From Thermincola carboxydiphila (GTDB lineage: Bacteria > Bacillota > Thermincolia > Thermincolales > UBA2595), in assembly GCA_016841325.1 (NCBI GenBank), contig JAENZJ010000011.1:47983-111982 (forward strand): a stretch of 64,000 nt of DNA, read 5' to 3'. Within the stretch, counting starts at the first letter, position 1; each line of letters opens with the position of its first letter. The notes beneath the pieces were generated by a model. It made no database searches and was not told the DNA's origin. It saw nothing but the letters and a program-made list of their open reading frames with translations. The translations under genes were made by a program, and so were the position numbers. This document shows, one piece after another, positions 27,203-38,869 of the stretch.

Positions 27203-28225
27203 GTGGTGATTTTTATGATAACTCAAATCTTCAGCTGGCTGAATGACCAGCTGCTGAGGATGACATGGCTCTCAGAATCAGTAAGTCTTCTGGTGGAAAA
27301 GGTGTTTGGTTTGTCTGTCCAGGAGAGGCTCGGAGGGAGTATTCAGTTTTTTATCTATGATACAATAAAAATCTTCATTTTGTTGTCAGTGCTGATTTTT
27401 GGCATATCGTACATTCAGAGTTACTTCCCGCCGGAAAGGACCAAAAAGATTCTGGGCAGGATGGGAGGTATCAAAGGTAATATTTTTGGAGCACTGTTGG
27501 GAACAATCACCCCATTCTGAAGCTGTTCCAGTATACCGATATTTATCGGTTTTACTTCGGCAGGTCTGCCGCTGGGAATAACCTTTTCATTCCTGATATC
27601 TTCGCCTCTGGTAGATTTGGCATCAATACTGATATTAATGTCATTTTTCGGAGCTAAAATTGCCATTGCCTATGTTGTTGTAGGTTTGATCCTGGCAGTT
27701 GTCGGCGGAACCCTCATTGACAAATTAGGCCTTGAAAAATATGTGGAAGGTTATGTCAGTGAAATAGAGAATGTCGATGCTGTGGTAGTGGAGAAAACAC
27801 GTGGAGAGAGAATAGCTTATGCCAGGGACCAGGTCAGGGATATCATCAAAAGAGTATGGCTGTATGTCCTGATTGGTGTCGGGATAGGTGCGGTAATTCA
27901 CAACTGGATTCCGCAGTCAGTCATAGAAAATGTGATCGGGGCCAATAACCCGTTTGCGGTGATACTTGCCACCATAGTGGGTATCCCCATGTATGCCGAT
28001 ATCTTCGGCACATTGCCCATAGCTGAAGCTTTATTGGCCAAAGGGGTAGGAGTGGGGACAGTAATGGCATTTATGATGGCAGTTACCGTTCTGTCACTTC
28101 CTTCCATGATTATGCTAAAAAAAGTAGTCAAACCCAAACTCCTGGGAGTCTTTTTTACCATAGTGGCAGTGGGGATAATAATTATTGGTTACCTGTTTAA
28201 TGCAACATCATATTTATTCGTATAA
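27203..28225 (+). CDS. DUF318/ArsP-like permease with in-frame TGA at 27518-27520 (candidate selenocysteine)
   Basis: ORFs 27203-27520 and 27617-28225 are in the same frame and open except for TGA: GTITPF(TGA)SCSSIPIFIGFTSAGLPLG; family normally has TPFCSCS. Confidence 0.75.
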
Positions 28226-31136: not shown

Positions 31137-32075
31137 TTATGGAACCTCAACCAAAGTCATTATTCCACCCGGGAAATTGTTTCCATTGACACAGCAGTTC
31201 AGATTGCGGTCATAAAGTACATATTTCCCCGGAGTAGGGGCAGTGAACAGAATATCATATGACTGTCCGGAGCCTATGGTAAGTGTATGTTTAAGATAAG
31301 ATTTGTCGAGAACGGGTGTTATCAGCGGCCGGCTGTCACCTGCAACCACCCTGGCATCAATATCCTGGAGCCGGATATTGTGGTTCATAAACCCGGCATT
31401 GATAATTCTTAACAGGACCCGCTGCCCCGGAGCTGCTGTGACCTTGGCGCCATAAGGCTGCGGCCCGCTGTCGTCAGGGTTTAAGGTATCCGGGAAGCTG
31501 CGCCCATTGATCAGGAAATAATCCGGTTTGTAGCCTGCCGGTTCGTCACCTGATGCGAGGGCTTGGTGCATGGCTGTATCCACTTCACTGAGGACCATAA
31601 TTTTTTCTATATCAAAATCAGTTCCGCTGCCGGAGCCGTAAGCCGTCCACGTAGCTGGGTTACCGGGGTCAAACCCCGGAGGGCGGACCACCATGGCGCC
31701 ATATAATCCCATTTGAATCTGTTTTTCCGGGGCGGTGCCGCTTTCGTAGAGAAATATACCGGGACGGCTTACAGTCAGAGAGTAAGTGAGGGTGCCCCCG
31801 GAAGCGGTTTCCGGATTGTAAGACACAAAAGTGCCGGCCGGGTTTTTTACCGGCTGGGGGACAAAGTCCTGTCCGGGGAAAACCAGAGAAATGCCGGAAG
31901 CAAGGTCATTTGTCAGGGATATTTCAACATTTTCACCCTGGGGTACTTCCAACAGGGGTCCCGGCAGCCGGGCAGGCCCTTCTGTTGCCGGAGCAAACCC
32001 CCAAAAGGGCACCGGACCGGCTCCCGGCAGGGATATACTGCCTGTCTTGGCCCACAGGTTATAATTTACCGTCAA
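31137..32075 (-). CDS. Two-domain cupredoxin/multicopper-oxidase-like protein, copper motifs degenerate (subunit A)
   Basis: TTG start after AAAGGAGGA: MTVNYNLWAKTGSISLPGAG; paralog of next two ORFs; no HxH motif found. Confidence 0.7.
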   Translation of the reverse strand: MTVNYNLWAKTGSISLPGAGPVPFWGFAPATEGPARLPGPLLEVPQGENVEISLTNDLASGISLVFPGQDFVPQPVKNPAGTFVSYNPETASGGTLTYSLTVSRPGIFLYESGTAPEKQIQMGLYGAMVVRPPGFDPGNPATWTAYGSGSGTDFDIEKIMVLSEVDTAMHQALASGDEPAGYKPDYFLINGRSFPDTLNPDDSGPQPYGAKVTAAPGQRVLLRIINAGFMNHNIRLQDIDARVVAGDSRPLITPVLDKSYLKHTLTIGSGQSYDILFTAPTPGKYVLYDRNLNCCVNGNNFPGGIMTLVEVP

Positions 32076-32132
32076 AATTCTTCCTCCTTTCAATTCCATA
32101 AAGGGGGAATATTTATATTATCAAAGGGGAAA

Positions 32133-33329
32133 TCATTCTATTGTGCCCACATTACCCAACGAACCGGCAGGGAAAATGGCCAGCATTGTCATCAGCCCTC
32201 CCGGGAACTCACCCCAGTTGGTAATCTGCATCTCTTCATGGGAGTGGAGCATAAAGTAATATTCCCCCATCTCATTAAAGGAAGTAACCCCTACCGGAAT
32301 ATCACCTTTTTCTCCTAAGTATGGGCTGCCGCTCCACAGGGTCCACCCGGCATCTCCCACACCCAGGTTGCGCAGGTTGGGCAAAGTTGTGGGAATGGGA
32401 TTAGCCTGACTGTAACCCAGTCCGGACCAGGAAAAGATCTGGTCATAAGTCTGGCCTGAACCTGTGAGTATCGTGAACCGTTTGTAGGACAAATCAGTAG
32501 TCCCGTTTTTTAGCAGGCGGCCGTCCTCGGCAACAACCCTGGTATGGTTTCCGTGGAGGTGCAGGGGGTGATTCTCAATACCGGCGCCTGCATAACGGAT
32601 CAGGATTTTTTCACCCGGTTCTGCCATAATCATAGCCCCATACGGCTGGTTGGACAGGCAGCCCATACCGTCGGCAAACATGGTGTCTGGGGCGCAGCGG
32701 CCGTTCATAGTCCAGTAACGGGGTTTGAATTCGCGTATGTTGTAGTCTGTGCCCTTTTCTACAGCGCTGTGCAGGACGGGGTCGATTTCAGAGACAACAA
32801 TTAGGTATTCCCGGTCAAATTCGGTCCCGGTATTTTCTCCATAGGCAGTTTTTCTGGAGGGGACAGCCGGGTCATAGTCGGCAGGCCTTACGATTATTGC
32901 CCCGTAAAGGCCCATGGGGACCTGTTTATGGGGATTGGTGCCGCTTTCATAGAGGTATGTTCCCGGGTTTCCGGCTGTAAAGATATACCTGATGCTGGTC
33001 GGGTTGGCGCCGGGGTTGCCGGGATAGTCAGCAAAATCCGTCAGTGAAACCAAATTTCCGGTGCCGTCAAACTGTGGTTCTGCAAGGTGCGGCCCAGTGC
33101 CATTATCAGCCAGTACGCCTGACTGGCCGGGAAACAACAGGGAGGTCGCTTCGGGAAGGAGATTGTGGACCGTGATGCTGACAACATCCCCCTGGGTGAC
33201 CACAATTCTGGGCCCGGGCAGTTGGGCTTTTTTTCCGGCTGTATCAGTGAAACCCCAAATATAAATACTGTTTCCGTCAGGTGTGCTCATATAACCATCG
33301 GTAGCCCACAGCTCAATGTTAACTGTCAT
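32133..33329 (-). CDS. Two-domain multicopper-oxidase-like protein (subunit B)
   Basis: MTVNIELWATDGYMSTPDG; NHPLHLHGNHTRVV and YYFMLHSHEEMQITNWGEFPGG. Confidence 0.8.
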   Translation of the reverse strand: MTVNIELWATDGYMSTPDGNSIYIWGFTDTAGKKAQLPGPRIVVTQGDVVSITVHNLLPEATSLLFPGQSGVLADNGTGPHLAEPQFDGTGNLVSLTDFADYPGNPGANPTSIRYIFTAGNPGTYLYESGTNPHKQVPMGLYGAIIVRPADYDPAVPSRKTAYGENTGTEFDREYLIVVSEIDPVLHSAVEKGTDYNIREFKPRYWTMNGRCAPDTMFADGMGCLSNQPYGAMIMAEPGEKILIRYAGAGIENHPLHLHGNHTRVVAEDGRLLKNGTTDLSYKRFTILTGSGQTYDQIFSWSGLGYSQANPIPTTLPNLRNLGVGDAGWTLWSGSPYLGEKGDIPVGVTSFNEMGEYYFMLHSHEEMQITNWGEFPGGLMTMLAIFPAGSLGNVGTIE

Positions 33330-33342
33330 TTTAACCCCACCT

Positions 33343-34380
33343 TTACTGCCCCGGACCGGCCTGGGGAGGCAGTGTTCCGGCGGCAAATACCTGTACTTCG
33401 GAAACCATGCCTCCAGGTGTCACTCCGGCATTGGTATTTTTATAGCAATCCCGGTTAAAAACGGGATACGTCCCCGGGGCGGGTGCGGTAAATATTGCGT
33501 CAAGGGTCTGCCCGGCGGCAAAGTAATTGCAGTCCTTCCAGTAAGCCAGGTCTTCCCCGTTCAGTCCCAGAGGCCTGGCGGCATCCTGACCCACTATCCG
33601 GACAGGGATACCCAGGATCTCTATGGAGTGCTGCTGGTAGCCGAGGTTAATATAGCGGAGCAGGACTTTTTCCCCGGAGTTTGCTTTAATTAAAGCTGGA
33701 AATGGCTGTTCAGGCAGGTCCCCGGCGGATTTGACAGTATCCGGGTAGGACCTGCCATTGATTAACCAGTAATCAGGAGAGAAATCCGTCCAGTCATATT
33801 CCTGGACACTGGCCACCTGGTGGTGGGCAGCACTGTCCAGTTCAGTCAGGAATACAAAGTATTCGCGGTCAAATTCGGTTCCGGTCCCATGGCCATAAGC
33901 AGTTTTATATAACGGGTTATTGGGGTCATAATCCGCAGGCCGTACCAGCAGGGGCCCGATCATGCCCATCTGGATATGTTCCACGGGTTCGAAATGACAG
34001 TGGTACATATAAGTGCCCGGGTCCAGGGGTTTATAGTAGTAAACAAAATCCCTGCCCACCGGTACCGATATGGATGCTTCCGGGACACCGTCATAAAGGG
34101 CTATCTGGTTAGGGAAACCGTGCCAGTGGACCGTATGGGAGTCATCAAGGTCGGGCCTGACCGGCATGCCCAGGTTAGTCAGAGTCAGGTATACTTCATC
34201 TCCGACTTTTACTTCCAAAAGGGGCCCCAGCAGCTGAGCTTTTCCCCTGTAGGAAAATATTTCGCTTTCCGGAATTCCGGTCAGGTCAACCCAGCCAAAA
34301 ATGTAGTGTTCAGAGCCGTCAGGCATTTTAATGTGGCCATCGGTGGCTCCAAAACGCTTATTGATTACTGCCATTTTCAT
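33343..34380 (-). CDS. Two-domain multicopper-oxidase-like protein (subunit C)
   Basis: DDSHTVHWHGFPN and GTYMYHCHFEPVEHIQMGMIGPLLVRP. Confidence 0.85.
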   Translation of the reverse strand: MKMAVINKRFGATDGHIKMPDGSEHYIFGWVDLTGIPESEIFSYRGKAQLLGPLLEVKVGDEVYLTLTNLGMPVRPDLDDSHTVHWHGFPNQIALYDGVPEASISVPVGRDFVYYYKPLDPGTYMYHCHFEPVEHIQMGMIGPLLVRPADYDPNNPLYKTAYGHGTGTEFDREYFVFLTELDSAAHHQVASVQEYDWTDFSPDYWLINGRSYPDTVKSAGDLPEQPFPALIKANSGEKVLLRYINLGYQQHSIEILGIPVRIVGQDAARPLGLNGEDLAYWKDCNYFAAGQTLDAIFTAPAPGTYPVFNRDCYKNTNAGVTPGGMVSEVQVFAAGTLPPQAGPGQ

Positions 34381-37300
34381 CGCCCCTTTCCGGCTCTTCC
34401 GCCGTTATTACATGCATCAGGGTAGGAGTGTGGCCGATGAAAGGTGACGGGAAATTAATCCCCTTTTTCTTTAGCATTTCAGATACCGTGTCAAAGATTT
34501 TCAGCACGGGATAGGGTAAGGGTACAGGCCAGAATTCATCTGCCCCGATGTCATATCTCTGCCACGGCCTGGGCAGGTCGTCAAAACTGAAATCCGGGGC
34601 CTGCCAGGTTGTGCCGCCGGCGGTAAAGTATTTGGTGCCGCTGTTCACAGCCGGGGAGTTTCGCCTTAGGTGGTAATCACCTTCTGCTTCCGGAGTTACA
34701 GTGACAATTTTGACTGATTTAAAGGTCGGTTCGGTGGTGAAGGCCACCACATTAAGTTTGGTATCAAAGGTTTTCTTAAATCTTGGGGAATTATGTCCGT
34801 TATATACTATATTATGCGCCCCGGAACCGTAAGGGACAGTCAGGTAACAGTAATCAGGCGACATATACAGGGGTGTGGCCCCACCGAAAACCTCCAGGTC
34901 AATCCGCAGGTAATCAGTGGAGAGCTTTCCGGTATTGATATCAAAATGATAAGCCCGGTTATCCCAGAACAGGTTATTAAACAGCACCGGGTCACTGAAA
35001 ACCGGAGAGCCGGGAGGCAGCACGGCCTGGAAGGCGGAACTGTTCATTTCACTCACCAGACCGGCGCCGTGGGGATTGCCGTCACTGTCCTCGGCTGTGG
35101 CTGTGGTAATATTTTTGGCTATGGTATTATTGTAAATAACCACATTGGCGGCATCGTCAAGGGCAACAGCGCCGCCCAGGTCTGTGGAGACATTGTTCAC
35201 AATCATATTGTTGTAGATTTTAATCAGGTAGGTACCCGGCTGCAGGAGCCTGATACCGCCGCCGTCATCATTGGCAACATTCCCCTGGATACAGTTATTG
35301 TATATCTCCACTTCACCGGAACCTGCCGAAAGCACAGCCGGGGGGACCGGTTGTTCGCCGCCGATGAAAATGCCTGCCCCTTCGTCAAAGGAGGCATTGA
35401 ATGATACACAGTTGTGGTGGATTTTGCCGAACCTGCTCAGGCCGAAGTGGGAAATGCCGCCGCCATACTCGGCGGAATAATTGCCGCATATTTCGTTATG
35501 GTCAATTTCGTAATAGTGGGCGCCGTTAAAGATGCCGACAGCCCCGGCCAGGCTGATGCCGCCATTGTTGAGTATCCTGTTGTAATAAATCCTGATACGT
35601 TCATTGTGATTATCTCCGATATAAGCACTGCCAACGGTAATCGCGCCTCCGAAACCGCCGCCGTTGCTCCGGAGTATGTTGTTGCTGATTTCCAGGTTGC
35701 GGCAGTAAGCATTGATATACAGCCCGCCGCCTTCTTCGCCCCTGGCGCCGGTAATATAGAAACCGTCAAGCTGGGTATGGAAGCTGCTGCCAAATACCCC
35801 GTCTTTGGCCACAAAGGTAATTACCTGTCCCCGGGGGATTTCCTGGTTACCGTCGAATTCAATGCTGTTAAGTTTTTGGACCCACTGCTCAAGATAGCTC
35901 AGGAAAAAGCGCCCGTCAATCCTGGTGACTTCTGCCCCATACCCCTGGATCTTAACATTTTTGTAGATGATGGGACTTTCATAATAAGTACCGGGTGCCA
36001 CAATAATCAGGCTTTTCTCAGCTGCATTATCTATAGCTGACTGGATCGAGCCGCCTGCCGGAACGTTTACAACCGGCGGATTATAGTTGGAGCCGGGGAT
36101 ATGAATGGTCAGTCCTGTTGGTGCTGCGATACCGTCCGAATTATACAGCAGCAGCTGCCAGGCGCCGCTGGGAAAGTTCCTGGGGACGGCACAGGTGACC
36201 CGGTTGTTTCGCCACCTGCTGACAGGCAGGAATCGATTGTTTAAGGTCACATAACCAATTCGGTTTCCGAAGTCAATACCATCAATGACCAGTGTCCTGG
36301 ACCCGGTACGGGTGAAATAAACTCTGTTGACCCTGGTGATCTGCGGGGTTCCCGGTTTTGCATCACACAGCGGCGGCTGGGCGAACTGGCTGCCTGGGGT
36401 TTCCACAAAGGCGGTGATGGGGAACAGGGCCACATCGGCATAAGTTGTTTTTCCCGGCCAAACTTCAAACACCATTTTCAGGGTGTGGTAATTGGGGTTG
36501 TAATTTTCATTTGGGGCATCAGGGTTTCCGGGGTCATTGCCGATTACCTGGTACATCCCCGGAGCAACTCCTGAGGGAGAGGGGATATTTGCGGTATACG
36601 TAGATGGCAGGATTACTTCAAAAATTCCGTTAAGGTCAGAGTGTACCGTTGTAATCAGGCGGCCGGTAAAATCCCTGATTCCCACCGGTGCCAGGGGAAT
36701 ACCCCGTTTCTCTCCATAGTAAATTCTGGCGGGGTCTGTTTCGATATTGACATCATCCAGCAGGAAGCCGACTATCCTGCCAGGGACCGGGACATCGGTA
36801 TAAATAAAGAAGTCGGCAGCGGCATTCTGTCCCCAAGTCACAGTTATAATTTTGGCGGTGCGGGAAGAACCCTCATAGGGCGGGGGGGCAATCTGGGCAG
36901 AAAAATTTTCGGCCGGTATAAAGGTATCGCCTTCCCCTGTGTTTATTGAAGATTCATCCAGTATTTTATAGCCATGGGGCACTTCAATTTCAACGATATA
37001 GACCCCTTCGGCCAGAGGTTCAAAGGCATACCCGCCGTCAAATACACCCCTGGCAATGTAGTTTCCGGTGCCGGGAACCTCAAGGACCGGGTCCCCGTCA
37101 TTATTCCGGGGGTGCTCCCAGGCATCAGAGGTTACGGAATCTATTTTGGGTCCCCGTTGTATTTCCCCTGTTACCGGGTCAACGGTAGTGGTATAAAGGT
37201 TAACCACAACATCGGGGACTCCCGGCTCATAACCCTCGGCCACGGCATAGCGCGGGTCCAGTTCGTTGCGCATGGTAGCATAATATATCATTCCCGATAT

Positions 37301-38869
37301 GCCGCCATTTGTAATGTCATCAGAAGTCTCCAGGATACCGTCTGCTCCGGGCAGGGGGTATTCTTTCTTGCCCCAGTCGATACGGTTCTTCTTGGCCGCC
37401 CAGGTCAGGGTAGCCAGGGTCAGGTCGCCATCATATACGGTGGTGGGCTTCTGGTCAGGGTTTTGGTAGTCCGGTGTGGCTGCAGCCGTAGTTCTCCCGA
37501 ACCGGGTAAAACCGGCTTCGGTAACATTAAAACGCTCCAGTTCAAAGACCTCATCCAGAGAGTAATTGCCCGCCATGTCGGTGACGGTACTGTACTGGAT
37601 ACTGCCGTCCTTAAACCGGGTCCCAACGGCAACATTGGGGATACCTTTTTCCCCCAGTTCGGGTTCAAAAACCCCGTTTCCATTGCTGTCACAGAATACT
37701 GTTCCCATAATCCATCCATACCAGCGCGGGATACCTATCTGCCCGGGATACCTGGCCGGGTCGTCGGCAATCGTCACATTCCAGCTGCCGGTTACCGGGT
37801 CAGGTACTTGCACGGTTCTGAAAGAAATAATGTAATCAAGGGGTTCATCCCAGACAGCTATCTGGTATACCCCAGCCGGGACATTTGTTATCAGGACATT
37901 GCCGCTGCTGTCGCCACGGCCGGTGTAAACCTGTCTGTCTGTACGCCCCACATCGGTCAAGGCGACCCAGGGACGGTTCACCGGGTCACCAAGGGTCAGG
38001 GGTTTGGTTGGGGGGACAAATTCAATTGTTGTTTTGACCTGGGTCGTGATTGTTCCCGTGGTTTCTCCCGGCCCCGGCAGGGGAAACTCCATGGGCTGCA
38101 CAAAACCTATCCAGACCAGAGGAGCTTTGAAGCCTTCACGGGGACTGTACCCGTCATTGCCCTCTTCAATCCAGGCATCAATTATATGAGTTCCTTCAAT
38201 AGTGGTGGTCTGAATCCAGTCAGTCCCGTCAGGTGGGATGGCCTGCACTTCATATTTGCCCGGGGCCAGATATTCAATAACGGCATCACCGTTGGCATCA
38301 GTCCGGATTATGCCACCGGTATCCGGAATGGGAACCGGTTTGCCCCCCGGGTCAAGAATGAGATGTCCCTGGGCATCTTTTTCATATTGGGTGCCCAGGA
38401 CGTTACCGAAGTAATCGGTGGTCACTTCTCCCACCACATCACCGATCACTATCCTGAAACCCTCCAGCCCATGTTCCAGCGGGACATCGTCTTCACCATT
38501 GACAGGGCCGTTGTCATGGAAAACATGAACCCTGATTGTGGAGAGGGGAAGGGGGTCAGGGTAGAGTTCTATGGTCACGGTTTGGTTAGAAGAAATACTG
38601 ATGTGGTGTCCGCCCAGCTTATAGCCGGGGGCAAGAACCGAGACAAGATAACTGCCTGCCGGCACAGCCACCACGGGAGAAGATGAATCCCCCGCGGCAA
38701 TTACCGGACTATGACTGGCTCCCGGTTTCAGGGAGGGCCAGTTGGCAGGGTCAGGGTCAAAGGGGTTGCCCACATTGTTTTCATTGACAATAAATTTGAA
38801 ATTGTTCAGCGGCTGGTTTGTCTTGACATCCTTCACCTGAACTGTAAGGAGGGGGTTACTGTTACTCAT
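34358..38869 (-). CDS. 1503-aa protein: SdrD_B-like domains, IPT/TIG-like domain, right-handed parallel beta-helix
   Basis: GTVFCDSNGNGVFEPELGEKGIPNVAVG; ITRVNRVYFTRTGSRTLVIDGIDFG; SIQSAIDNAAEKSLIIVAPGTYYESPI and NN-rich beta-helix coils; overlaps the subunit C start by 23 nt. Confidence 0.85.
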   Translation of the reverse strand: MSNSNPLLTVQVKDVKTNQPLNNFKFIVNENNVGNPFDPDPANWPSLKPGASHSPVIAAGDSSSPVVAVPAGSYLVSVLAPGYKLGGHHISISSNQTVTIELYPDPLPLSTIRVHVFHDNGPVNGEDDVPLEHGLEGFRIVIGDVVGEVTTDYFGNVLGTQYEKDAQGHLILDPGGKPVPIPDTGGIIRTDANGDAVIEYLAPGKYEVQAIPPDGTDWIQTTTIEGTHIIDAWIEEGNDGYSPREGFKAPLVWIGFVQPMEFPLPGPGETTGTITTQVKTTIEFVPPTKPLTLGDPVNRPWVALTDVGRTDRQVYTGRGDSSGNVLITNVPAGVYQIAVWDEPLDYIISFRTVQVPDPVTGSWNVTIADDPARYPGQIGIPRWYGWIMGTVFCDSNGNGVFEPELGEKGIPNVAVGTRFKDGSIQYSTVTDMAGNYSLDEVFELERFNVTEAGFTRFGRTTAAATPDYQNPDQKPTTVYDGDLTLATLTWAAKKNRIDWGKKEYPLPGADGILETSDDITNGGISGMIYYATMRNELDPRYAVAEGYEPGVPDVVVNLYTTTVDPVTGEIQRGPKIDSVTSDAWEHPRNNDGDPVLEVPGTGNYIARGVFDGGYAFEPLAEGVYIVEIEVPHGYKILDESSINTGEGDTFIPAENFSAQIAPPPYEGSSRTAKIITVTWGQNAAADFFIYTDVPVPGRIVGFLLDDVNIETDPARIYYGEKRGIPLAPVGIRDFTGRLITTVHSDLNGIFEVILPSTYTANIPSPSGVAPGMYQVIGNDPGNPDAPNENYNPNYHTLKMVFEVWPGKTTYADVALFPITAFVETPGSQFAQPPLCDAKPGTPQITRVNRVYFTRTGSRTLVIDGIDFGNRIGYVTLNNRFLPVSRWRNNRVTCAVPRNFPSGAWQLLLYNSDGIAAPTGLTIHIPGSNYNPPVVNVPAGGSIQSAIDNAAEKSLIIVAPGTYYESPIIYKNVKIQGYGAEVTRIDGRFFLSYLEQWVQKLNSIEFDGNQEIPRGQVITFVAKDGVFGSSFHTQLDGFYITGARGEEGGGLYINAYCRNLEISNNILRSNGGGFGGAITVGSAYIGDNHNERIRIYYNRILNNGGISLAGAVGIFNGAHYYEIDHNEICGNYSAEYGGGISHFGLSRFGKIHHNCVSFNASFDEGAGIFIGGEQPVPPAVLSAGSGEVEIYNNCIQGNVANDDGGGIRLLQPGTYLIKIYNNMIVNNVSTDLGGAVALDDAANVVIYNNTIAKNITTATAEDSDGNPHGAGLVSEMNSSAFQAVLPPGSPVFSDPVLFNNLFWDNRAYHFDINTGKLSTDYLRIDLEVFGGATPLYMSPDYCYLTVPYGSGAHNIVYNGHNSPRFKKTFDTKLNVVAFTTEPTFKSVKIVTVTPEAEGDYHLRRNSPAVNSGTKYFTAGGTTWQAPDFSFDDLPRPWQRYDIGADEFWPVPLPYPVLKIFDTVSEMLKKKGINFPSPFIGHTPTLMHVITAEEPERGDENGSNQ

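Follow-up and report, generated by a model that had tools for sequence, protein, structure and literature searches.

A four-gene operon of spore-forming anaerobes probably encodes a heteromeric multicopper oxidase with its trinuclear copper site divided between two subunits

Descriptions of multicopper oxidases (MCOs) distinguish homotrimers of two-domain chains from single chains with three or six domains. The homotrimers 3g5w and 2zwn, which we take to be type C two-domain multicopper oxidases, are the closest described architecture for the proteins reported here. In two-domain oxidases (2dMCOs) each trinuclear site is coordinated by residues of two protomers (PMC13151041). For the larger enzymes a six-domain ancestor has been hypothesised that had three trinuclear sites, of which modern proteins retain at most one (PMC3600357). 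MnxG has been linked to spores of marine Bacillus (PMC5622069). In the literature searched, mostly without subscription journals, neither a heteromeric MCO of the kind considered below nor a mention of the operon was found.

The operon lies in a 64-kb stretch of DNA that was analysed as a whole (the window). On its minus strand the genes D, C, B and A follow each other in tight succession, and all four ORFs were confirmed:

34358..38869, minus strand: gene D, 1503 aa; beta-helix region, TIG-like domain and repeats of SdrD_B/prealbumin-like type; without signal peptide
33343..34380, minus strand: gene C, two-cupredoxin subunit; domain 1 predicted to bind copper, domain 2 without copper ligands; alternative ATG at 34374
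32133..33329, minus strand: gene B, read from ATG 33329, two-cupredoxin subunit; no copper ligands in domain 1, domain 2 predicted to bind copper
31137..32099, minus strand: gene A, two-cupredoxin subunit, no copper ligands; TTG 32075 the more probable start

Pfam matches were Cu-oxidase families for A, B and C, and SdrD_B/prealbumin-like domains for D. ORFs and domains thus agree with the initial annotation, which had described three paralogous two-domain MCO-like genes and a 1503-aa beta-helix gene and had D translationally overlapped with C; the overlap measures 23 bases. Two cupredoxin domains per chain are indicated by the Pfam families of A, B and C and by a match to 2zwn (TM 0.73 over 326 columns). 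Some relatives of A carry C-terminal fn3 domains. Two of the gene starts given previously did not hold: for B, ATG 33329 is more likely than TTG 33386, and for A, TTG 32075, preceded by AAAGGAGG, is more likely than ATG 32099. With the ATG as start of B, B and C do not overlap. B is 91% identical to its counterpart in a Thermincola ferriacetica MAG, the nearest named relative, which places the window in Thermincola or very close to it. An Rfam search of the 64-kb window yielded zero matches.

Elsewhere in the window, at 27203-28225 on the plus strand, the gene of an ArsP-family permease contains a TGA in frame (codon 106, motif TPF-U-SCSSIP). ArsP_1 is matched when the TGA is read through, a hairpin is located 3' of it (z -2.9), SelB is encoded in the genome (above cut-off) and a relative (L027) shows the same arrangement of two ORFs. 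The permease is a candidate selenoprotein.

The copper ligands of the operon are distributed over two polypeptides. A, B and C together contain exactly four HxH motifs, and no single chain has all of them: two are in C (positions 85 and 127), two in domain 2 of B, and none was found in A or D. The motifs are:

34117..34137, minus strand: C residues 82-88, HTVHWHG; H82 type 1 ligand, H85 and H87 trinuclear; aligns with HTIHWHG of 3g5w
33961..34002, minus strand: C residues 127-140, HCHFEPVEHIQMGM; H127 and H129 trinuclear, C128, H135 and M140 type 1; aligns with HCHVNVNEHVTM of 3g5w
32544..32570, minus strand: B motif HPLHLHGNH, the third HxH; H254, H257, H259 and H262 counted from ATG 33329; aligns with HAIHTHGH of 3g5w
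32238..32246, minus strand: B motif HSH, the fourth HxH; H362 and H364 counted from ATG 33329; aligns with HDH of 3g5w

C aligned to the two-domain oxidases 3g5w and 2zwn across both domain 1 motifs, and both domain 2 motifs of 3g5w were matched by B. Type 1 ligands (His, Cys, His, Met) were found in domain 1 of C only; H82, C128, H135 and M140 make up the complete set. C domain 2, B domain 1 and the whole of A are devoid of copper ligand sets. In domain 1 of B and A the residues H87/C128/H129/H135/M140 are mostly replaced by Pro/Ser/Gly/Gln/Leu, and in domain 2 of C and A the last histidine is replaced by Arg. The count of four HxH motifs, the type 1 site of C domain 1 and the loss of ligands from the other domains had all been read from the single sequence before, and motif counts and consistent substitutions in the alignments bear them out. 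Over A, B and C the ligands fit a single trinuclear site. Both HxH motifs were kept in 20/20 C proteins that have partners, and H82, H85, H87, H127, C128, H129, H135 and M140 were invariant in the 19 of these that were aligned. The four domain 2 trinuclear histidines of B were likewise invariant (n = 20 B sequences). Because it is unchanged across the partner-bearing C and B sequences examined, the ligand pattern is not due to chance.

When 399 genomes of the phylum were searched at the protein level, B was found in 17, and each of these 17 has C, B and A next to a D protein in unchanged gene order. A separate contig search added three loci (L028, L031, L032). The neighbourhood search suggested in the initial annotation thus showed the expected co-occurrence of the four genes. 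Minor irregularities were an operon spread over two contigs (G072), a D interrupted by a stop (G066) and a C start in another frame (G209). Three separate cupredoxin genes are present at all loci, one six-domain polypeptide at none. In a neighbourhood comparison of the loci no flanking genes shared across families were found, therefore D-C-B-A is a self-contained cassette. All bacteria in which it was found are spore-forming anaerobes. The maximum-likelihood tree resolved each of A, B and C as monophyletic (support 100/99), i.e. each paralogue has one origin, and A and B formed the closest pair (midpoint root). Since A and B have a dead domain 1 in common, the simplest order of loss, with the root at midpoint, would be that C kept domain 1, the A/B ancestor kept domain 2 and A then lost domain 2 as well.

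We propose that C, B and A assemble into a heteromeric two-domain multicopper oxidase. Electrons from the substrate would enter at the single type 1 copper in domain 1 of C, from where the His-Cys-His link of this domain would carry them to a single trinuclear copper cluster. Domain 1 of C and domain 2 of B would each supply four His to this cluster, and O2 would be reduced to water at this site shared by C and B. Homotrimers of C or of B could not form the site because neither protein has both halves; the two together could. Such a division of the site is favoured by three independent results, the strictly kept partition, the four-gene linkage and the pattern of loss in one genome (G051, see below), which also support the B-C enzyme suggested initially. 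The translation of D is coupled to that of C, and D is likely to act as surface scaffold. Synthesis of the complex would take place in the mother cell at a late stage of sporulation, followed by deposition on the spore surface; the spore is the stage at which these strict anaerobes encounter O2. Taken as a whole, this account is in our judgement probable.

Its cellular setting was approached from the sporulation genes, the promoter regions and the N-termini. SpoIVA is encoded by 17/17 operon genomes of the sample and by the genomes of the three additional loci. As 339 of the 399 sampled genomes (85%) encode SpoIVA, this co-occurrence is weakly informative. Four promoter patterns were tried. 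A sigma-K-like pattern, AC-N15-18-CATANNNT, written after the B. subtilis consensus, was present upstream of D in 6/20 operons (related loci) compared with 0.97 expected by shuffling. Control genes of the same loci had 3/102 matches (Fisher p 0.0006). Upstream of D in the window itself the pattern had no match, and sigma-E and sigma-A patterns were not enriched upstream. Two of the three control matches belong to a Mn-catalase-family gene directly upstream of D (two genomes); such a gene occupies this position in four related genomes (L036, L088, L090, L093). In Moorella, Mn catalases are coat proteins (PMC8745062). A strongly hydrophobic N-terminus was not found on A-D in any ortholog examined; the absence of signal peptides, already stated for the four proteins of the window, is thus general among the orthologs. 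The sigma-K-like enrichment, the SpoIVA-encoding hosts and the N-termini are circumstantial support for the spore surface, which had been suggested initially; SpoIVA adds little and the window has no such promoter. We somewhat favour this location.

A vegetative surface or cytoplasmic oxidase, engaged in O2 scavenging or metal oxidation, is conceivable and we regard it as a tentative alternative. It would accommodate the commonness of SpoIVA in the phylum as well as the distant single-chain relatives in Methanothrix, which does not sporulate. It does not account for the promoter pattern upstream of D, and signal peptides are missing although D-type repeats are usually extracytoplasmic.

Because the site would need C plus B, A is the natural third member of a ring. 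The ligandless A most likely completes a three-subunit, six-cupredoxin ring. Alternatively, C and B might share the site in an assembly of other stoichiometry, with A outside as an accessory or anchor. The complete lack of ligands in A and the extra fn3 domains of some A proteins would agree with such a role; yet A resembles its paralogues in size and in having two cupredoxin domains, is present in every intact operon and was kept together with C in G051, and the known 2dMCOs are trimers. We consider an A outside the ring unlikely. The specific form of the ring would be an A1B1C1 heterotrimer on the spores of strict anaerobes, in which gene triplication and complementary ligand loss have broken the symmetry of an ancestral homotrimer and left a single O2-reducing site in each ring. 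In separate genes, it would correspond to the ancestor that has been proposed for ceruloplasmin and other six-domain enzymes. For this fully specified version we see the chances as evenly balanced.

Partial-loss genomes and structure models bear on the question whether a trinuclear site exists at all. In G051, C and A are present, B and D are gone. The C protein of this genome is placed within the C clade on a long branch. It carries H85Y, H87E and H129Y, i.e. three of four trinuclear His are lost; H127 and the whole type 1 site are kept. Loss of the B-dependent ligands with retention of type 1 is what a shared site predicts. This co-loss of B and of the C trinuclear ligands is one single event; no relatives of G051 were found in its order. 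The remnant is adjoined on the opposite strand by a gene for an SBBP beta-propeller and DUF11 protein (L043, 2222-4486). AlphaFold2 was run on proxies, i.e. read-through chains of same-frame neighbouring ORFs with the stops read as Gly, for C-B (L030) and C-B-A (L029). Input rows were script-chosen subsets that aligned correctly; a joint alignment of all the single chains with the fused one was rejected because the paralogues collapsed onto one another. Both models had a pTM of 0.50, with trinuclear loops at pLDDT <50 and domain placement without confidence. Foldseek matched them domain by domain, with a global rmsd of about 25 A versus six-domain MCOs, and found no ring in these read-through models.

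It could then be argued that the two proteins act apart, C as a type 1 cupredoxin in electron transfer and B as a protein that binds copper on its own or is redox-silent. The models, which did not confirm the predicted interface, and the type 1 site retained alone in the G051 C protein would allow this. Against this stand the eight trinuclear His, invariant in 20 genomes on complementary domains of two linked genes, and the loss of the C half in the genome without B, which would not be expected of a protein with type 1 function alone. We judge this reading improbable. An ordinary MCO gene split by sequencing error, an objection anticipated in the initial annotation, or by pseudogenisation can be dismissed: degraded copies do exist (G173 lacks B and has disrupted C and D genes, G371 has lost both C and B and retains A with a shortened D adjoining a transposase-like gene, and G095 has half of A), yet the ORFs recur, separate and full-length, in about 20 genomes with one clade per paralogue. 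The shared C-B site with A as third member remains the preferred reading.

If true, the conserved hetero-oligomer would represent the symmetry-breaking step that has been proposed for the origin of ceruloplasmin-like enzymes, seen as separate genes in living bacteria. It raises the question why strict anaerobes retain an O2-reducing enzyme; air-exposed spores are a testable answer.

The closest relatives found are single-chain homologues of 510-570 aa from the same phylum (L046-L050, L095, L096, L098, L099). They share about 43-50% identity with C domain 1 over about 110-140 residues and have the type 1 position alike. Those with a domain 1 type 1 site carry four HxH motifs on one polypeptide. 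In the loci examined no D, B or A gene was found beside them. One further single-chain homologue (G234; L097, 4816-6237) keeps the type 1 ligands and has lost several trinuclear His. A longer single-chain relative from Methanothrix (L034, 6150-9870) is part of an MCO pair, 634 aa with four HxH and a degenerate 555-aa paralogue upstream, possibly another active/inactive pairing.

Copper nitrite reductase (NirK) is a two-domain trimer with an intersubunit copper site, as proposed here. It is without the extra type 3 His, whereas C carries H85 and H129 needed for a trinuclear site. As both are invariant in partner-bearing C and the match reached 42 bits versus the NCBIfam cut-off of 296, an identity as NirK was rejected; no NCBIfam family was above cut-off for any of the operon proteins. 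Ceruloplasmin and MnxG have six cupredoxins and one expected trinuclear site, like the proposed ring, but are single chains and not the products of three genes. In the Mnx complex, MnxE and MnxF are not MCO paralogues, unlike the A/B/C set. The operon looks like the loss of sites proposed for the six-domain ancestor, played out in separate chains.

The type C homotrimers are a closer architecture than ceruloplasmin or MnxG, to which the operon had been likened initially. They are the best PDB sequence matches for C and among the best for B, and they share with the operon proteins two cupredoxins per chain, the type 1 copper in domain 1 and the HxH positions. Their trinuclear site lies where domain 1 of one protomer faces domain 2 of a different protomer, as is proposed here. 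In the operon, however, the domain 1 and domain 2 ligands are on different paralogues and a third paralogue has none, so one active site would be expected per trimer, compared with three in a type C homotrimer. Most likely the operon proteins are a variant of the two-domain MCOs, which in spite of ligands dispersed over two chains would work in a similar manner.
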